NCBI RefSeq assembly: GCF_900094805.1
Contig: NZ_FMAT01000003.1
Coordinates: 124,001-188,000 of the forward strand
Length of the DNA: 64,000 nt
DNA from: Arthrobacter sp. NIO-1057
GTDB lineage: Bacteria > Actinomycetota > Actinomycetes > Actinomycetales > Micrococcaceae
Direction of reading: 5' to 3'
Made by a program: the position numbers and the translations under genes. Positions 273 through 29,679 of the stretch are shown here, piece by piece (the first letter of the stretch is position 1; each line of letters starts with the position of its first letter). The notes beneath the pieces are model-generated. The model worked only from the letters and a program-made list of their open reading frames with translations. It did no database searches and was not told the origin of the DNA.

Positions 273-551
273 CTACAGGTGCTCGTCGTCCAAGCCCGGA
301 TCGTATTGGTCCTCAATCGAATCATCCAGCTCGGGATCGGCACCGTTCACCGGTTGCGTGGGCTGCGGCGGCTGGACAGGCTGCCCGTCGCCGTTATCGA
401 CGTCCGTGCCCGAGTCGGCCTCGCCACCGGGCAGATGCTCGTCGTCGGGCTGGCCCGCCGGCCAGGTCTTCTCCACTACGTCCTTGTCCGGGTCATTGAT
501 CCGGTCGGTGGCGTGGGAGATGAGGTCTTTGGCTTTGTCCAGGATTCCCAT
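273..551 (-). CDS. Small MT0933-like antitoxin-family protein
   Basis: The 92-residue product starts MGILDKAKDLISHATDRIN. This short amphipathic helix resembles the N-terminus of the actinobacterial MT0933/Rv0909-like antitoxin family (typically MGFLDKAK followed by a basic/acidic helix). The rest is low-complexity, acidic and rich in Pro and Gln, so a disordered tail is likely. The ATG at 551 has a good purine-rich site (AAGGAAGAAG) 5-6 bases upstream. No toxin-like partner is recognised next to it, so the antitoxin label rests only on family resemblance of the first 20 residues and the real role may differ. Confidence 0.6.
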   Translation of the reverse strand: MGILDKAKDLISHATDRINDPDKDVVEKTWPAGQPDDEHLPGGEADSGTDVDNGDGQPVQPPQPTQPVNGADPELDDSIEDQYDPGLDDEHL

Positions 552-24354: not shown

Positions 24355-25803
24355 GGCTCTTCAGGATTCAGGGTGTAAACGAGGTCTGAAACCGCCGGTC
24401 TCCAGCAACGACCGCGCAATATAATGCGCCAAATTCCGGAACCCCAAGGCAATACCCCGCAAATGCTCCAGTCTCCCATTGAGAGCTTCAGTTGGGCCGT
24501 TGGAGCTGCCTACGTGGTCAAAGTATGCGAGGATATCCGTCTTCCGTCGACGCAAGGTGCCGCCGAGCTTCTGCAACTCCGGCAAGCCCGCAGGCACCTT
24601 GGTTCCGATGTCGTTGATCAGTTGCTCCATTGCCCACCGCCCAACTTCGGATTTCGACTGCCGGTACGCATCGACCATCTTCTGATACACGCTCCAGGCC
24701 AGTTGAACCGGCTCATACGCCGATTCTTTGAACAGGTCCTCAATCTTGGTTTTCTGCTTTTCAGTAGCCAAAGACAGCCCCGTGGTCAGCGTGCGCCGGC
24801 ACTTATACAGCGGATCGTCCTTTCGCCCTCGCCGGCCATGCTGCTCGCGCTGGACCCGTTGACGGGTCATATCCAGCGCTTCGGAACCAAGCTCGACCAC
24901 ATGAAACGGGTCAAGGACTTCTACGGCTTGAGGCAGCTCTTCGGCGGCCGCAGTTTTGAACCCGGTAAACCCATCCATGGCCACGACTTCAATGTCTTTT
25001 TCCATTGTTCATCTTGTTTGGCCAACCAAGTTTTGAATACTGCTTTGGAACGGCCCTGGATCATATCCAGTAAACGTGCGGTGCCTGTGCCAGCCCGTAC
25101 GGCGGTGAGATCCACAATGACCGTCACGTACTTGTCCCCTGCGCGGGTATGTCTCCACACGTGCTCGTCAATACCGAGGACTTTGACGCCGTTGAAGCGT
25201 GTGGGGTCCTTGATCAGCAGGCGTTGACCTTCGGCTAATACTGCGTCGTTGGCGGTGTTCCAGGTGACACCGAGACCCTCGGCGATACGGGACACGGACA
25301 GGTGCTGGCAAACCAGCCCGTTCAAAGCCCACGTCAGTCCGGTCCTACTGATTTTCTGACGCTCGGCCGCAGCTTGGGACAGGTCTTCATGCCACACATG
25401 ATGGCAGGTGTGACAGCGGTAGCGTCGGTGTTTGATGACCAAGACGGTAGGCCGCCATCCGAAGGGTTGATGGGCAAGCCGGCGGATGACGGTATCGCGG
25501 GGAACACCCGCTGCTCCACAGGTGCGGCACCAGGGATTCGGGGTGGTGACCTGGCAGAGGATCTCAGCTTTCGCTGCGCTCAGGTGCTGACCGACCGCGG
25601 TCAAGCCCAGTTGCTCCAGGCCGGCGAAGGTCGTGAGGTCTGGTGGCGTGAAGGTAGAACTGAGCAACGTCGAGGTCTTTCGAGAATGGGTAGTGTGGTA
25701 ACTTCCATTCTTCGCGAAGGCCTCGACTTTTTCGTGCATTGACGGCATGCCCGGGATCCGGGGTGTTGGTTTTAGGTGGTTACACTCTGAATCCTGAAGA
25801 GCC
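24355..25803 (-). mobile_element. ISL3-like insertion sequence, 1449 bp
   Basis: The left end begins GGCTCTTCAGGATTCAGGGT and the right end, read on the other strand, begins GGCTCTTCAGGATTCAGAGT; the inverted repeats match at about 23 of 25 positions. The element is flanked by exact 8-base direct repeats GACATCAG at 24347-24354 and 25804-25811, the duplication length typical of the ISL3 family. Its single gene encodes an ISL3-type transposase on the minus strand, broken by a frameshift. The intact ends and duplication indicate a recent insertion. Confidence 0.93.
24361..25748 (-). pseudogene. ISL3 family transposase, frameshifted
   Basis: The first part (from about 25748 to 25000) has the N-terminal zinc-binding motif CRTCGAAGVPRD... 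HRRYRCHTCHHVWHED, a helix-turn-helix, and the first acidic motif VLGIDEHVWRH. The second part, in the -1 frame, has AMDGFTGFKTAAAEELP and the C-terminal NGPTEALNGRLEHLRGIA with the last catalytic Glu. The break is at five A residues on the coding strand (plus-strand T run 24997-25001); one more A would restore a single 460-residue transposase. Either the copy is inactive or it uses -1 slippage. The stop codon lies inside the left inverted repeat; an ATG at 25808 falls outside the element, so 25748 or 25739 is the likelier start. Confidence 0.85.
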
Positions 25804-25960
25804 GACATCAGCCCGGAGTAACAAATCTACCCCTGCAATTTGCCGCGTTTTTCGCATGAGCTACTCTGGGAAATTTAACATTAAAGTTCTAAATTGCCTT
25901 TAATCTCAGGCTTCGTCAAACTAGACCTTGGTATCCACTCGCAACCATTTAGAAGGATCA

Positions 25961-26869
25961 ATGTCGAACTTTCCAAATTCTATGCCTCCCGATAGTTCTC
26001 ACAATCAAGCTCCAAAAAACCGGAAAACGCTCTGGATTCTTGTCGCCACGGCAGTGGTATTTATCTTGCTCCTATTCTTGCTTCCTGAATTGCTGATACT
26101 TGTCACGTTGCTTGGCCTGCTGGTGGCGGTTATCGGGATGATCAGAGGCAAAGTGCCGTGGCTTCCCGTCCGGGGGCGTAAGAACTCGGGCCTGTTTGGT
26201 CTTGGCATGGTCGTGTTAATGTTCGTCAGCGGTGCAATCATGGGGCCCGCTGAGTCAGAGGCAAACATCGCCGCATCTGAGGCTAGTGAACCGATTGTGA
26301 CTAGTTCAGGATCTGCAACGCCAACACCGACAGAGTCCGCATCACCCACTGCTATCGCTGACTTTGTTGGTCAGACTTGTGAGGGTGATGAGCTAGTCAT
26401 GGAGCAAGGCGACGAGAAGCTCTATTGTGACGAGGACACGAAAGCTGGTTTAATCTGGGCGACCCAGGACGAGCACGATAAATCTGTTTTAGCGGCTAAG
26501 GAAGCCGCCGAGCAAAAAGCAGCGGAAGAAAAGGCTGAAGCTGAGAAAAAGGAAGCTGAAGCGAAGGCCGCCGCAGAAAAGAAGGAAGCCGAAGCGAAAG
26601 CCGTGGCGGAAAAGGAAGCTGCAGAGAAAAAGGCTGCAGAAGTGAAAGTAGCCGAGGAAAAGGCTGCGAAAGAAAAAGCTGCTCGACTGGTCGAAGTAGA
26701 AACTACCAAGGAAGCCTATGTGGCTCCTAAAAAACAGAAGGCTCCTACGAGCACTTATTACGCGAATTGCTCAGCAGTTCGTGCTGCCGGCGCCGACCCA
26801 ATTTATAGGGGCGACCCCGGGTATTCAAGCAAACTGGATCGTGATGGAGACGGCGTAGCTTGCGAGTAA
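25961..26869 (+). CDS. Membrane-anchored Excalibur calcium-binding domain protein
   Basis: A 302-residue protein. Two hydrophobic helices (about residues 20-65 and 78-95) are followed by a Ser/Thr/Pro-rich linker, a long Ala-Glu-Lys repeat region (about 175-255, likely a coiled coil) and a C-terminal Excalibur domain: YYANCSAVRAAGADPIYRG then DRDGDGVACE, with the calcium-loop DxDxDG and paired cysteines. The ATG at 25961 follows AGAAGGA. Excalibur domains are often found on extracellular nucleases; the next gene, overlapping by ten bases, encodes such a nuclease-like lipoprotein, so the two probably act together at the cell surface. Confidence 0.84.
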   Translation: MSNFPNSMPPDSSHNQAPKNRKTLWILVATAVVFILLLFLLPELLILVTLLGLLVAVIGMIRGKVPWLPVRGRKNSGLFGLGMVVLMFVSGAIMGPAESEANIAASEASEPIVTSSGSATPTPTESASPTAIADFVGQTCEGDELVMEQGDEKLYCDEDTKAGLIWATQDEHDKSVLAAKEAAEQKAAEEKAEAEKKEAEAKAAAEKKEAEAKAVAEKEAAEKKAAEVKVAEEKAAKEKAARLVEVETTKEAYVAPKKQKAPTSTYYANCSAVRAAGADPIYRGDPGYSSKLDRDGDGVACE

Positions 26870-27681
26870 GAACCACCCTGACCGGATTTATACTGTTCGG
26901 CGCACTGTTAACAGGTTGCGCTGCAACCGCCAGCAGTGCGCCGGCAACACCCGAAGTATCAGTTGAAACATCTGAACCCGCTGAGATTGTTATTCGTTCT
27001 GAGGCTCCTCCGATCACGATTAGTACCGAGGCGCCGACTGAATCAGCCGAACCAAGCCTGCCTGAGCCCACGGTTGAGGTTGAATCCACTCCGAGCGTGA
27101 AAGCCGAGAAAACTACACAGGCTTTATCTGAAGTAGAAGCCTTATTGGCTGAGATTCCGGTGAAGGGCCGCGCACCGAAGACAGGGTACGACCGTGACTT
27201 GTTTGGTCGCGGTTGGGGCGACCCCGACCGGAATGGTTGCGATACCCGCAACGACATTCTTGCTAGGGATCTAGACGTGGACACGTTCAAGGATGGCACT
27301 CGTGCATGTGTTGTCCTCACCGGCACTCTGGTTGATCCGTACACCGACACGACGATTGACTTTGTGCGTGGCCAAGGAACAAGCAATGCGGTGCAGATTG
27401 ACCACGTCGTTGCGTTATCAGATGCCTGGCAGAAGGGCGCCCAACAGTTATCAGCTGAGCAGCGCCTAGAATTCGCGAATGATCCGTTGAACCTGCTGGC
27501 TGTCGACGGACCTACCAACGCTTCCAAAGGTGACAGCGACGCCGCAACGTGGTTACCACCAAACCGTGGATTCTGGTGTGAGTACGTGACCCGCCAGATT
27601 GAAGTCAAGCACAAGTACGACCTATGGATGACAAAAGCCGAACATACGCGCTCGGGCGAAATTATTGAGGAACGCTGTTAG
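26860..27681 (+). CDS. Secreted HNH (DUF1524/GmrSD C-terminal-like) nuclease lipoprotein
   Basis: A 273-residue protein starting at TTG 26860. The signal peptide ends in the lipobox LLTGC (about residues 15-19), followed by a long Pro/Glu/Ser/Thr spacer (20-90). The C-terminal domain has QIDHVVALSDAWQKGA with the HNH His, then FANDPLNLLAVDGPTNASKG and DAATWLPP, the standard DUF1524 pattern, and conserved cysteines (GCDTRNDILARDL, ACVV, FWCEYV). It should be a lipid-anchored surface nuclease. It overlaps the Excalibur gene by ten bases, indicating translational coupling. Roles such as DNA breakdown or competitor defence are inference. Confidence 0.85.
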   Translation: MRVRTTLTGFILFGALLTGCAATASSAPATPEVSVETSEPAEIVIRSEAPPITISTEAPTESAEPSLPEPTVEVESTPSVKAEKTTQALSEVEALLAEIPVKGRAPKTGYDRDLFGRGWGDPDRNGCDTRNDILARDLDVDTFKDGTRACVVLTGTLVDPYTDTTIDFVRGQGTSNAVQIDHVVALSDAWQKGAQQLSAEQRLEFANDPLNLLAVDGPTNASKGDSDAATWLPPNRGFWCEYVTRQIEVKHKYDLWMTKAEHTRSGEIIEERC

Positions 27682-28347: not shown

Positions 28348-28421
28348 AAAGTGATAGCAGTCAGCACGCTCACTATCACTTTCTAAGAAAGTGATAGTAA
28401 GGTTTTTCTTACTATCACTTT
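28348..28421. promoter_or_regulatory. Four-copy operator array before fic
   Basis: The 10-mer AAAGTGATAG occurs four times in alternating orientation: 28348-28357 direct, 28373-28382 inverted, 28388-28397 direct and 28412-28421 inverted. The middle pair forms a 12+12 palindrome with one central base, and the last pair forms perfect 14-base arms (AAAGTGATAGTAAG and its complement) around a six-base loop. The array ends at the ribosome site of fic, so it must cover the promoter. Confidence 0.75.
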
Positions 28422-28431
28422 GGAGACACTC

Positions 28432-29679
28432 ATGGGAGATCCCTCGGGCGACTATTTTGCATTCGCCGTCCCTCCCCTGTCCGACCAAACACTTGTCTGG
28501 AAGCCCGTAAATCCACACATTTTCTCGAACGCTGAAGTGCGGCGACAAACTGGATCCTACGCGTCCCCACTACCAGCGCGAATTGCGGATTGGGCGCCAG
28601 AGCCAGGAGCATTGAAGATTCCCGGGCTTGAAGAAGCGTCGCAATCCATTCAAGATTTCGATGTCTACTCCCTACTAAAACTGGGCAGCCACAGCCCCGA
28701 GTTTGGCCCGATGTCCGACGCTTTACTCCGGATCGAAAGCTCATCGAGCAGCCAGATTGAACAACTAACCACCACTGCACGCCAACTTGCACCGGCGGAA
28801 ATTAACGTTGGCGATAAGTCCGACGCCCGCACAGTCGTTGGTAACGTCCACGCGATGGAGTCAGCTCTCGCACTCGCTCAAGATATGAGTGTTAGCGCCA
28901 TTCTGGCCATGCATCAGAGTCTGATGAATCAACAATCTGGCATGGAAGATGAAGCCGGAAAACTCCGCAATGAACTCGTGTGGATCGGCGGAACGGATAC
29001 TGCAGGACCGCGCGGAGCCGTCTATATTGCGCCAGAACACACACGGGTCCACGAGGCGCTAGAAGACCTGGTTCAATTCATGTCTCGCACCGACTTGCCA
29101 GCCATCGTTCAAGTAGCCATCGCCCATGCACAGTTTGAAACCATCCATCCTTTCGTGGACGGCAATGGACGCACCGGACGAGCGTTAGTTCACAGCGTTC
29201 TACGCAACCGAAAGATTACCCAGCACACCACCGCACCAATCTCCGCCGGAATCTTGCGTGATACAGAAGCTTACTTTGAGGCAATGAAAGCGTTCCGAGA
29301 AGGAGACGCATCACCAATCATTCATACCTTCATCAATGCATCAATTTTTGCGGCGAACTCAGGTAAAGAGCTGATTGATACATTGTCTGGGCAACTAGAT
29401 ACTTCGAAAATAAAATTGGCTGGGCTGCGTTCAAGTTCCGCTGCTTGGAAGATCCTTACATGCCTGATTTCTCAGCCCGTTATTAACGCTCGGTATCTAA
29501 AAAACCATCTCAATCTGGGTGATGCAGCAACCCACCGCGCCTTGGGTCAATTGACCGAACGCGGTGTGCTCGTTGAGAAATCGGGACAAAGCAGAAACCG
29601 AATCTGGCAACACGATGGAGTGCTTAAGGTGCTCGACGAATATGCAAAGGCTCTTCGGCGTCCATCCGGCACAGCTTGA
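28432..29679 (+). CDS. Fic domain protein with C-terminal winged helix
   Basis: A 415-residue Fic protein. The catalytic motif HPFVDGNGRTGR is complete at residues 239-250, so AMP transfer (or a related nucleotidyl or phosphocholine transfer) to a target hydroxyl is expected. An N-terminal inhibitory-helix motif SSQIEQ with Glu110 matches the class II (S/T)xxxE(G/N) pattern except that Gln replaces Gly/Asn. The C-terminal 80 residues (SSAAWKILTCLISQ... DAATHRALGQLTERGVLVEK) form a winged helix likely to bind DNA. The ATG at 28432 follows GGAG by six bases. It is preceded directly by a four-copy operator array, suggesting autoregulation. Confidence 0.9.
   Translation: MGDPSGDYFAFAVPPLSDQTLVWKPVNPHIFSNAEVRRQTGSYASPLPARIADWAPEPGALKIPGLEEASQSIQDFDVYSLLKLGSHSPEFGPMSDALLRIESSSSSQIEQLTTTARQLAPAEINVGDKSDARTVVGNVHAMESALALAQDMSVSAILAMHQSLMNQQSGMEDEAGKLRNELVWIGGTDTAGPRGAVYIAPEHTRVHEALEDLVQFMSRTDLPAIVQVAIAHAQFETIHPFVDGNGRTGRALVHSVLRNRKITQHTTAPISAGILRDTEAYFEAMKAFREGDASPIIHTFINASIFAANSGKELIDTLSGQLDTSKIKLAGLRSSSAAWKILTCLISQPVINARYLKNHLNLGDAATHRALGQLTERGVLVEKSGQSRNRIWQHDGVLKVLDEYAKALRRPSGTA

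Follow-up and report, generated by a model that had tools for sequence, protein, structure and literature searches.

The window analysed here is a 64,000-nucleotide stretch of Arthrobacter sp. NIO-1057, in which a gene for a Fic protein (fic) is preceded by a series of inverted repeats that reach its ribosome-binding site. The features of the locus are as follows.

28348..28361, plus strand: half-site H1, AAAGTGATAG followed by four weaker bases; the outermost site
28369..28382, minus strand: half-site H2, reading CTCACTATCACTTT on the plus strand; departs from the 14-mer at one base and forms the left arm of the central palindrome
28388..28401, plus strand: half-site H3, AAAGTGATAGTAAG; the other arm (right) of that palindrome, with the presumed -10 element at its end
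28398..28403, plus strand: presumed -10 element TAAGGT, overlapping the end of H3; placed from the start-codon distance in homologues
28408..28421, minus strand: half-site H4, reading CTTACTATCACTTT on the plus strand; adjoins the ribosome site
28422..28425, plus strand: ribosome-binding site GGAG, from the sequence
28432..29679, plus strand: fic gene, encoding a 415-residue Fic protein with a C-terminal winged helix; PADLOC SoFic model, E 7.7e-68
28747..28761, plus strand: codons of the inhibitory-helix motif S106-x-x-x-E110; S106, S107 and E110 are invariant in 41/41 aligned sequences
29146..29181, plus strand: Fic catalytic motif HPFVDGNGRTGR (residues 239-250); core invariant in 41/41
29521..29559, plus strand: codons of the recognition helix (residues 364-376) in the AlphaFold2 model, with Arg369 at 29536-29538
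29566..29610, plus strand: codons of the wing (about residues 379-393) in the AlphaFold2 model

An alternative in-frame TTG start at 28420, inside H4, is possible, and the ATG at 28432 is favoured over it because it has a ribosome site. Further upstream lie an ISL3-family transposase whose coding sequence is divided between two overlapping frames (24361-25808, minus strand), an excalibur-domain protein (25928-26869) and, following it, a GmrSD C-terminal domain protein (26860-27681, plus strand), possibly secreted, with an N-terminus that looks lipoprotein-like by eye.

The Fic domain (PF02661; E 4.6e-18, 66.3 bits against a cut-off of 24) contains in HPFVDGNGRTGR an intact HPFx(D/E)GN(G/K)R motif of AMPylating Fic enzymes, in which H239, P240, F241, D243-R247, G249 and R250 are invariant in all 41 aligned sequences. 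The S106xxxE110 motif, which we take to be the inhibitory-helix motif of class II Fic proteins, lies N-terminal to the Fic core and follows the pattern (S/T)xxxE(G/N) except strictly at its last position, which is Q in this protein and N in the consensus. The corresponding motif of CbFic2 reads TSAIEG in the cited passages of PMC10628234. Pfam names no domain at the C-terminus of the protein. The AlphaFold2 model, built from 41 sequences (mean pLDDT 87.5, pTM 0.87), predicts there a winged helix composed of helices 337-344 and 353-360, the recognition helix 364-376, a wing at about 379-393 and a last helix 395-408. The best solved matches in Foldseek are themselves Fic proteins, with alignments spanning almost the full chain, in the order 7cb8, Shewanella SoFic, 7xux and 8cil. 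The closest, 7cb8, is a Fic protein of Mycobacterium marinum (TM 0.84/0.89, 31% identity), solved with CDP according to the part of its record cited here; among the matches listed, a literature search for it gave only unrelated papers. SoFic (3eqx, 3zcn) shares domain order and fold with the query (TM 0.67-0.68 by query) at 19% identity, and its NCBIfam equivalog NF046030 reaches only 68.9 bits against a cut-off of 550, though the PADLOC SoFic model matches with an E value of 7.7e-68. The winged helix that the first-pass annotation had placed at the end of the protein is thus confirmed by both the model and the structural matches.

The decamer AAAGTGATAG occurs exactly at 28348-28357 (+), 28373-28382 (-), 28388-28397 (+) and 28412-28421 (-), the last copy abutting the GGAG ribosome site, and these copies form the cores of 14-bp units, CTTACTATCACTTT / AAAGTGATAGTAAG, of alternating orientation. 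H3 and H4 are complementary at 14/14 positions and the H2 and H3 arms agree over 16 bp at 94%; H1 is weak outside its 10-bp core. The 14-bp units start at 28348, 28369, 28388 and 28408, that is, with a pitch of 21, 19 and 20 bp and gaps of 7, 5 and 6 bp. Since starts 19-21 bp apart correspond to two helical turns, the four half-sites should lie on approximately one face of the helix. No 10-mer of at least three different letters had three or more copies within 80 bp, on either strand, in any of 100 dinucleotide-preserving shuffles of the window, and in the real window the AAAGTGATAG cluster is the sole cluster of this kind. The array is therefore not a product of chance, given that not one shuffle yielded even three copies. 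The four head-to-head copies reaching up to the ribosome site, noted in the first reading of the sequence, accordingly stand, with exact coordinates. Elsewhere in the 3.54-Mb genome there are only two exact copies of AAAGTGATAG (four of the reversed control pattern), and with up to two mismatches the decamer matches 33 times across the window, 34.7 matches being expected. Similarly, the 14-mer with up to two mismatches is found at seven places in the genome, three of them in the array and four scattered and single, against 11 places for its reversed control, so this search gives no sign of targets other than fic.

To describe the array in homologues, we compiled 101 homologous loci, having dropped L008, L092, L108, L110 and L113 as redundant or fragmentary and L065 as devoid of upstream DNA; fragments and pseudogenes remain in the set, as do L007, L096 and L101, which are near copies of one locus. 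An inverted repeat scoring at least 10 within 170 bp around the start was observed at 63 of the 101 loci and in 70 of 3222 control windows drawn from the same loci; at a score of at least 13 the counts are 32 and 11, respectively. The layout persists across clades but the letters of the half-sites change: Microbacterium and Brevibacterium have TAAGTGTTGGTAAG, mycobacteria TAAGTGATGCTATC, Leifsonia TAACCTTTCATAAG and Bifidobacterium TATCTGTAGCTATG. Among 53 non-redundant loci read as having the central pair, 31 carry an outer half-site (at least 9/14, in the right orientation) 19-22 bp from that pair, compared with 0-2 loci at each of 13 control offset bins. H4 is present in 23 of these loci, H1 in 24 and both in 16; all four sites occur in fewer loci than three sites do, and the mean profiles for both outer sites peak at exactly 21 bp. 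For proteins less than 56% identical to the query the fraction is 29/51. Because outer sites are seen in 31 of 53 loci, and in 29 of 51 distant ones, a multi-site array at two-turn pitch is shared by much of the family and is not peculiar to this gene.

A new set of 107 loci, reduced to 86 by removal of 12 duplicates of earlier sets and of near copies, was searched between positions -125 and +60 relative to the expected first residue, with control offsets up to 73, a slight departure from the rules set in advance. It yielded 46 loci with a confident array, and an outer half-site at 23 of 43 loci against 0-2 of 43 at the controls; the mean H4 match is 8.1/14 at exactly 21 bp. The remaining 40 of the 86 loci lack a confident array under strict rules, and they include a subfamily with Pro at residue 369; in the first set, 28 of 99 loci fell below a score of 8 or a match of 10/14. 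Diverged subfamilies or truncated genes account for some of these loci, and others may truly lack an array. The idea that the same motif precedes homologous fic genes thus holds for the letters among close relatives and fails between clades, where the letters change; what is kept in many loci is the layout. The Pro369 subfamily comprises L076, L077, L103, L256, L263, L267, L268, L270-L272 and L274; L076, L077 and L103 have a VNVYPPL-like helix, and TTATGAGTAA-type repeats stand upstream of L076 and L103.

Many homologues also share the distance between the array and the start of the gene. In 35 of 71 loci, H3 ends exactly 8 nt before the first in-frame start codon, and in the new set an in-frame start codon stands at this offset in 32 of 43, where none of the other offsets from 2 to 29 is used by more than three loci. 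The last bases of H3 are TAAG or TATG, often followed by AT. With the start codon 8 nt downstream, the end of H3 sits where the -10 element of a leaderless transcript would; the -10 element itself and the leaderless transcripts of the homologues are what we infer from this distance. The presumed element, TAAGGT in the window, reads TAAGAT in L090 and L091, and a scan with the sigma-70 consensus reported no promoter at the array. In the homologues with the +8 start, the H4 equivalent covers the start codon and the first codons. The Glutamicibacter clade differs in having a ribosome site, with its start codon 30-38 nt after H3.

These positions bear on a reading in which the repeats act as RNA, either through an H3-H4 hairpin that hides the ribosome site or through an H2-H3 stem followed by TTTTT as a terminator. 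H3-H4 is predicted to fold as RNA at -20.6 kcal/mol (z -5.1), and the H2-H3 stem with its T-run is one of two terminator-like sites in the region, where shuffles average 1.8 such sites. However, in the many homologues whose start codon follows H3 by 8 nt, H1-H3 would lie upstream of the presumed leaderless transcript and so could not form an RNA hairpin. Moreover, the close relatives L090 and L091 lack the T-run, and neither alternating sites at 21-bp pitch nor covariation with a DNA-reading helix, described below, is expected for an RNA element. We regard the RNA reading as highly improbable.

Examination of the half-site letters together with the protein alignment revealed one amino acid, Arg369, that is associated with a particular base of the operator. 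In the first set, 71 of 99 loci passed the thresholds (score at least 8 and at least 10/14), of which 64 were left after requiring an aligned protein and no two proteins more than 85% identical; the proteins of L065, L098, L107 and L109 are too short to align. All 47 proteins with Arg369 have G at position 5 or 6 of the half-site, against none of the 17 without it, and among 991 residue-column tests this is the best (p 7e-16, the next being 3e-7). With low-confidence rows included, 93 of 96 follow the rule, and the three exceptions (L021, L064 and L102) are all of low confidence. The rule itself emerged from inspection of this set. A second set of 29 loci, one of them without any candidate, gave six agreements out of six above the thresholds (L122, L124 and L125 with Arg; L129, L142 and L146 without) and 16 out of 22 below them, where L130, L131, L132, L136, L137 and L147 are exceptions. 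For the new loci the tests were fixed beforehand, and the Arg369 rule was counted on the 46 loci with a confident array: G was found in 30 of 30 proteins with Arg369 and in 2 of 15 without, a sixteenth non-Arg row (L186) having no residue at 369 because a stop cuts the reading. The new loci constitute a near-independent test, since their proteins are less than 85% identical to the earlier ones yet still relatives of them. The two true exceptions, L201 and L264, have no Arg yet carry half-sites with CCGATG. The half-site of L213, which has Arg, is nearly the same as that of L201, which has Ala.

Residue 369 falls within the recognition helix (364-376) predicted by the model, and contact of Arg with G is usual chemistry. 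The pair formed by residue 369 and half-site position 5 ranks first of 3480 pairs of protein and half-site columns; other high-ranking pairs involve residue 335 with position 1 and residue 200 with several positions. After APC correction only three of the ten top pairs fall within residues 345-395 (1.7 expected); by raw z five of ten do. Divergence of the half-sites, in partial correlations corrected for Fic-domain divergence, follows divergence of the protein most closely at the wing (0.267, a modest peak, for the 12-residue window 381-392); outside the winged helix no window of this length exceeds that of residues 191-202 in the Fic domain (0.216). An 8-residue scan of the C-terminus gave 0.243 for the recognition helix, residues 369-376. 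On a tree of residues 41-328 each of the two traits changes six times, in step on all four supported branches, which are too few for a sign test to reach 0.05; the stricter trait TG changes in step on 1.6 of the four branches on average.

The array is also linked to the gene. The central palindrome, with up to two mismatches, occurs in 8 of the 58 genomes examined at genus, family and order level, once in each and always within the genus, directly before an orthologous fic in six and before a decayed remnant in two (G001 and G012); its reversed control occurs once in the 58 genomes. The broken fic of G002, with its altered array, is not matched by the pattern. In the two genomes with remnants (L160 and L163) the array is followed by what is left of fic, the operator having outlived the gene, and in G002 (L093/L108) the fic ortholog is split over two matches and has an in-frame TGA, with the array partly kept. 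The DNA similarity that the window shows to L090 begins with the first base of H1, and its similarity to L091 with the first base of H2; both end with fic, within flanks of about 1.4 kb. The same genome has a second winged-helix Fic protein, L101 (G000:C5:262965-264122), 41% identical and with Val at 369, whose array has other letters, TAAGCATTGGTATG, and an H4 copy inside the first codons.

A separate transcription factor, encoded elsewhere, could in principle bind the array and control fic. Such a factor is very unlikely, as the site letters covary with the recognition helix of Fic itself, the palindrome is confined in 58 related genomes to fic or its remnants, once per genome, the array shares its similarity boundaries with fic, and the two paralogues of one genome carry different arrays. 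We consider it highly improbable that Fic binds the array and activates its gene, or that the array marks the end of a mobile unit or serves as its integration signal. The array does form the similarity boundary between the window and L090/L091, as a mobile unit might have it, but no copy of AAAGTGATAG with up to two mismatches lies near the other end of the gene; and the overlap of the sites with the presumed -10 element and, in many homologues, with the start codon is typical of repression. CccR, the Fic protein compared below, is likewise a repressor in the cited passages of PMC9755527.

Taken together, the conserved layout and the covariation of the letters with Arg369 indicate that Fic itself very probably reads the array, and the coverage of the presumed promoter by the array argues for autorepression. 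As judged from sequence, we are thus confident, short of certainty, that Fic is a one-component autoregulator whose winged helix binds four half-sites on about the same face of the DNA, covering the core promoter, and represses its own gene. The C-terminal winged helix would read the 14-bp half-site, four of which, in alternating orientation, would extend over the core promoter and the beginning of the transcript or of the gene; bound Fic dimers or a tetramer would exclude RNA polymerase, so that Fic would limit its own level. The recognition helix and the operator would co-evolve, and paralogues in one genome could consequently read different operators. Binding by Fic, repression rather than activation, and dimers or a tetramer as the bound form are what we infer. 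The proposal in the first-pass annotation that Fic is its own regulator is thus strongly supported by the conserved geometry and the Arg369 covariation, and it has an experimental precedent in CccR; its dimer or tetramer binding would fit four alternating half-sites about two helical turns apart, and the link that it drew between AMPylation state and expression is made plausible solely by the related proteins CbFic2 and Sofic.

The closest functional parallel is CccR of Yersinia pseudotuberculosis, which also combines a Fic domain with a C-terminal helix-turn-helix and, in the cited passages of PMC9755527, binds and represses its own promoter. The same passages describe a 3.3-fold derepression in a deletion mutant, gel shift, footprint and loss on mutation of the palindrome, and state that binding needs the C-terminal domain and becomes much weaker when dimerisation is lost; it is by its DNA-binding domain, they say, that CccR differs from every other Fic protein with a characterised function. 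The query shares the C-terminal winged helix fused to Fic, according to the model and Foldseek, and its array differs from the CccR operator: two 10-bp inverted repeats with a 26-bp spacer are described for CccR in that text, whereas the actinobacterial Fic proteins have up to four 14-bp half-sites about 6 bp apart at a pitch of about 21 bp, and the gaps in the window are 7, 5 and 6 bp. CccR is, again in the cited passages (PMC9755527), a secreted toxin of a proteobacterium. A second relative, the class II protein CbFic2 of Coxiella burnetii, has a DNA-binding C-terminal winged helix; in the passages of PMC10628234 cited here, DNA binding stimulates and switches its activity, it acts on histone H3, and DNA of random sequence was used to study both its binding and its activity, no operator being named. 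According to the same passages, DNA binding had not been shown for SoFic (PMC10628234). For the anti-phage protein Sofic, the cited part of PMC12249575 gives the C-terminal domain a role in regulating toxicity, describes its movement on ATP binding, and mentions no DNA binding.

A C-terminal winged helix is found in many Fic proteins, the anti-phage Sofic included, and its job is mostly unsettled. The phased array and the one-residue rule make a role of this domain directly testable and may help to predict the operator from a Fic sequence; the pairing of Arg369 with G also suggests how cells could hold several Fic switches without cross-talk. If true, the autoregulation proposed here would generalise the behaviour found for CccR, a single Fic protein with a helix-turn-helix of its own, as far as the cited passages of PMC9755527 describe it. 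Among the matches listed, the open-licence PMC literature gave no description of the array or of the Arg369 rule, and we regard as new the conserved phased multi-site array, its position on a promoter that would be mostly leaderless, and the Arg369-G covariation. As the phased array is widespread and accompanied by the Arg369 rule, the Fic protein of the window is more than one further CccR-like member.

A bolder extension of autorepression by Fic, which we offer as a doubtful speculation, would make the actinobacterial winged-helix Fic proteins a switch of toxin-antitoxin type built from a single gene. Four neighbouring protomers docked along a single face of the promoter would silence the gene and at the same time hold the enzyme inactive, a trigger such as phage attack would free the protein, turning on the enzyme and the gene together, and the Arg369-G pairing would insulate parallel switches in one cell from one another.

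Searches of phage records gave 19 weak matches, none covering more than 80% of the query. To look beyond Actinobacteria, plasmid records were searched, of which 677 matched. We examined ten among the matches listed, eight of them non-actinobacterial, and compared them for inverted repeats. Upstream inverted repeats are absent in three of the ten (Thermus, Phyllobacterium and Streptomyces), score 8-9 in three (Microvirga, Natrinema and Phaeobacter) and score at least 10 in four (Agrobacterium, Citrobacter, Acetobacter and Arthrobacter). The Citrobacter (L154) and Agrobacterium (L152) plasmids carry repeated upstream sites, TTATTAAA and TTAATTAAG, respectively, whose spacing looks different by eye, about 31 bp in L154.
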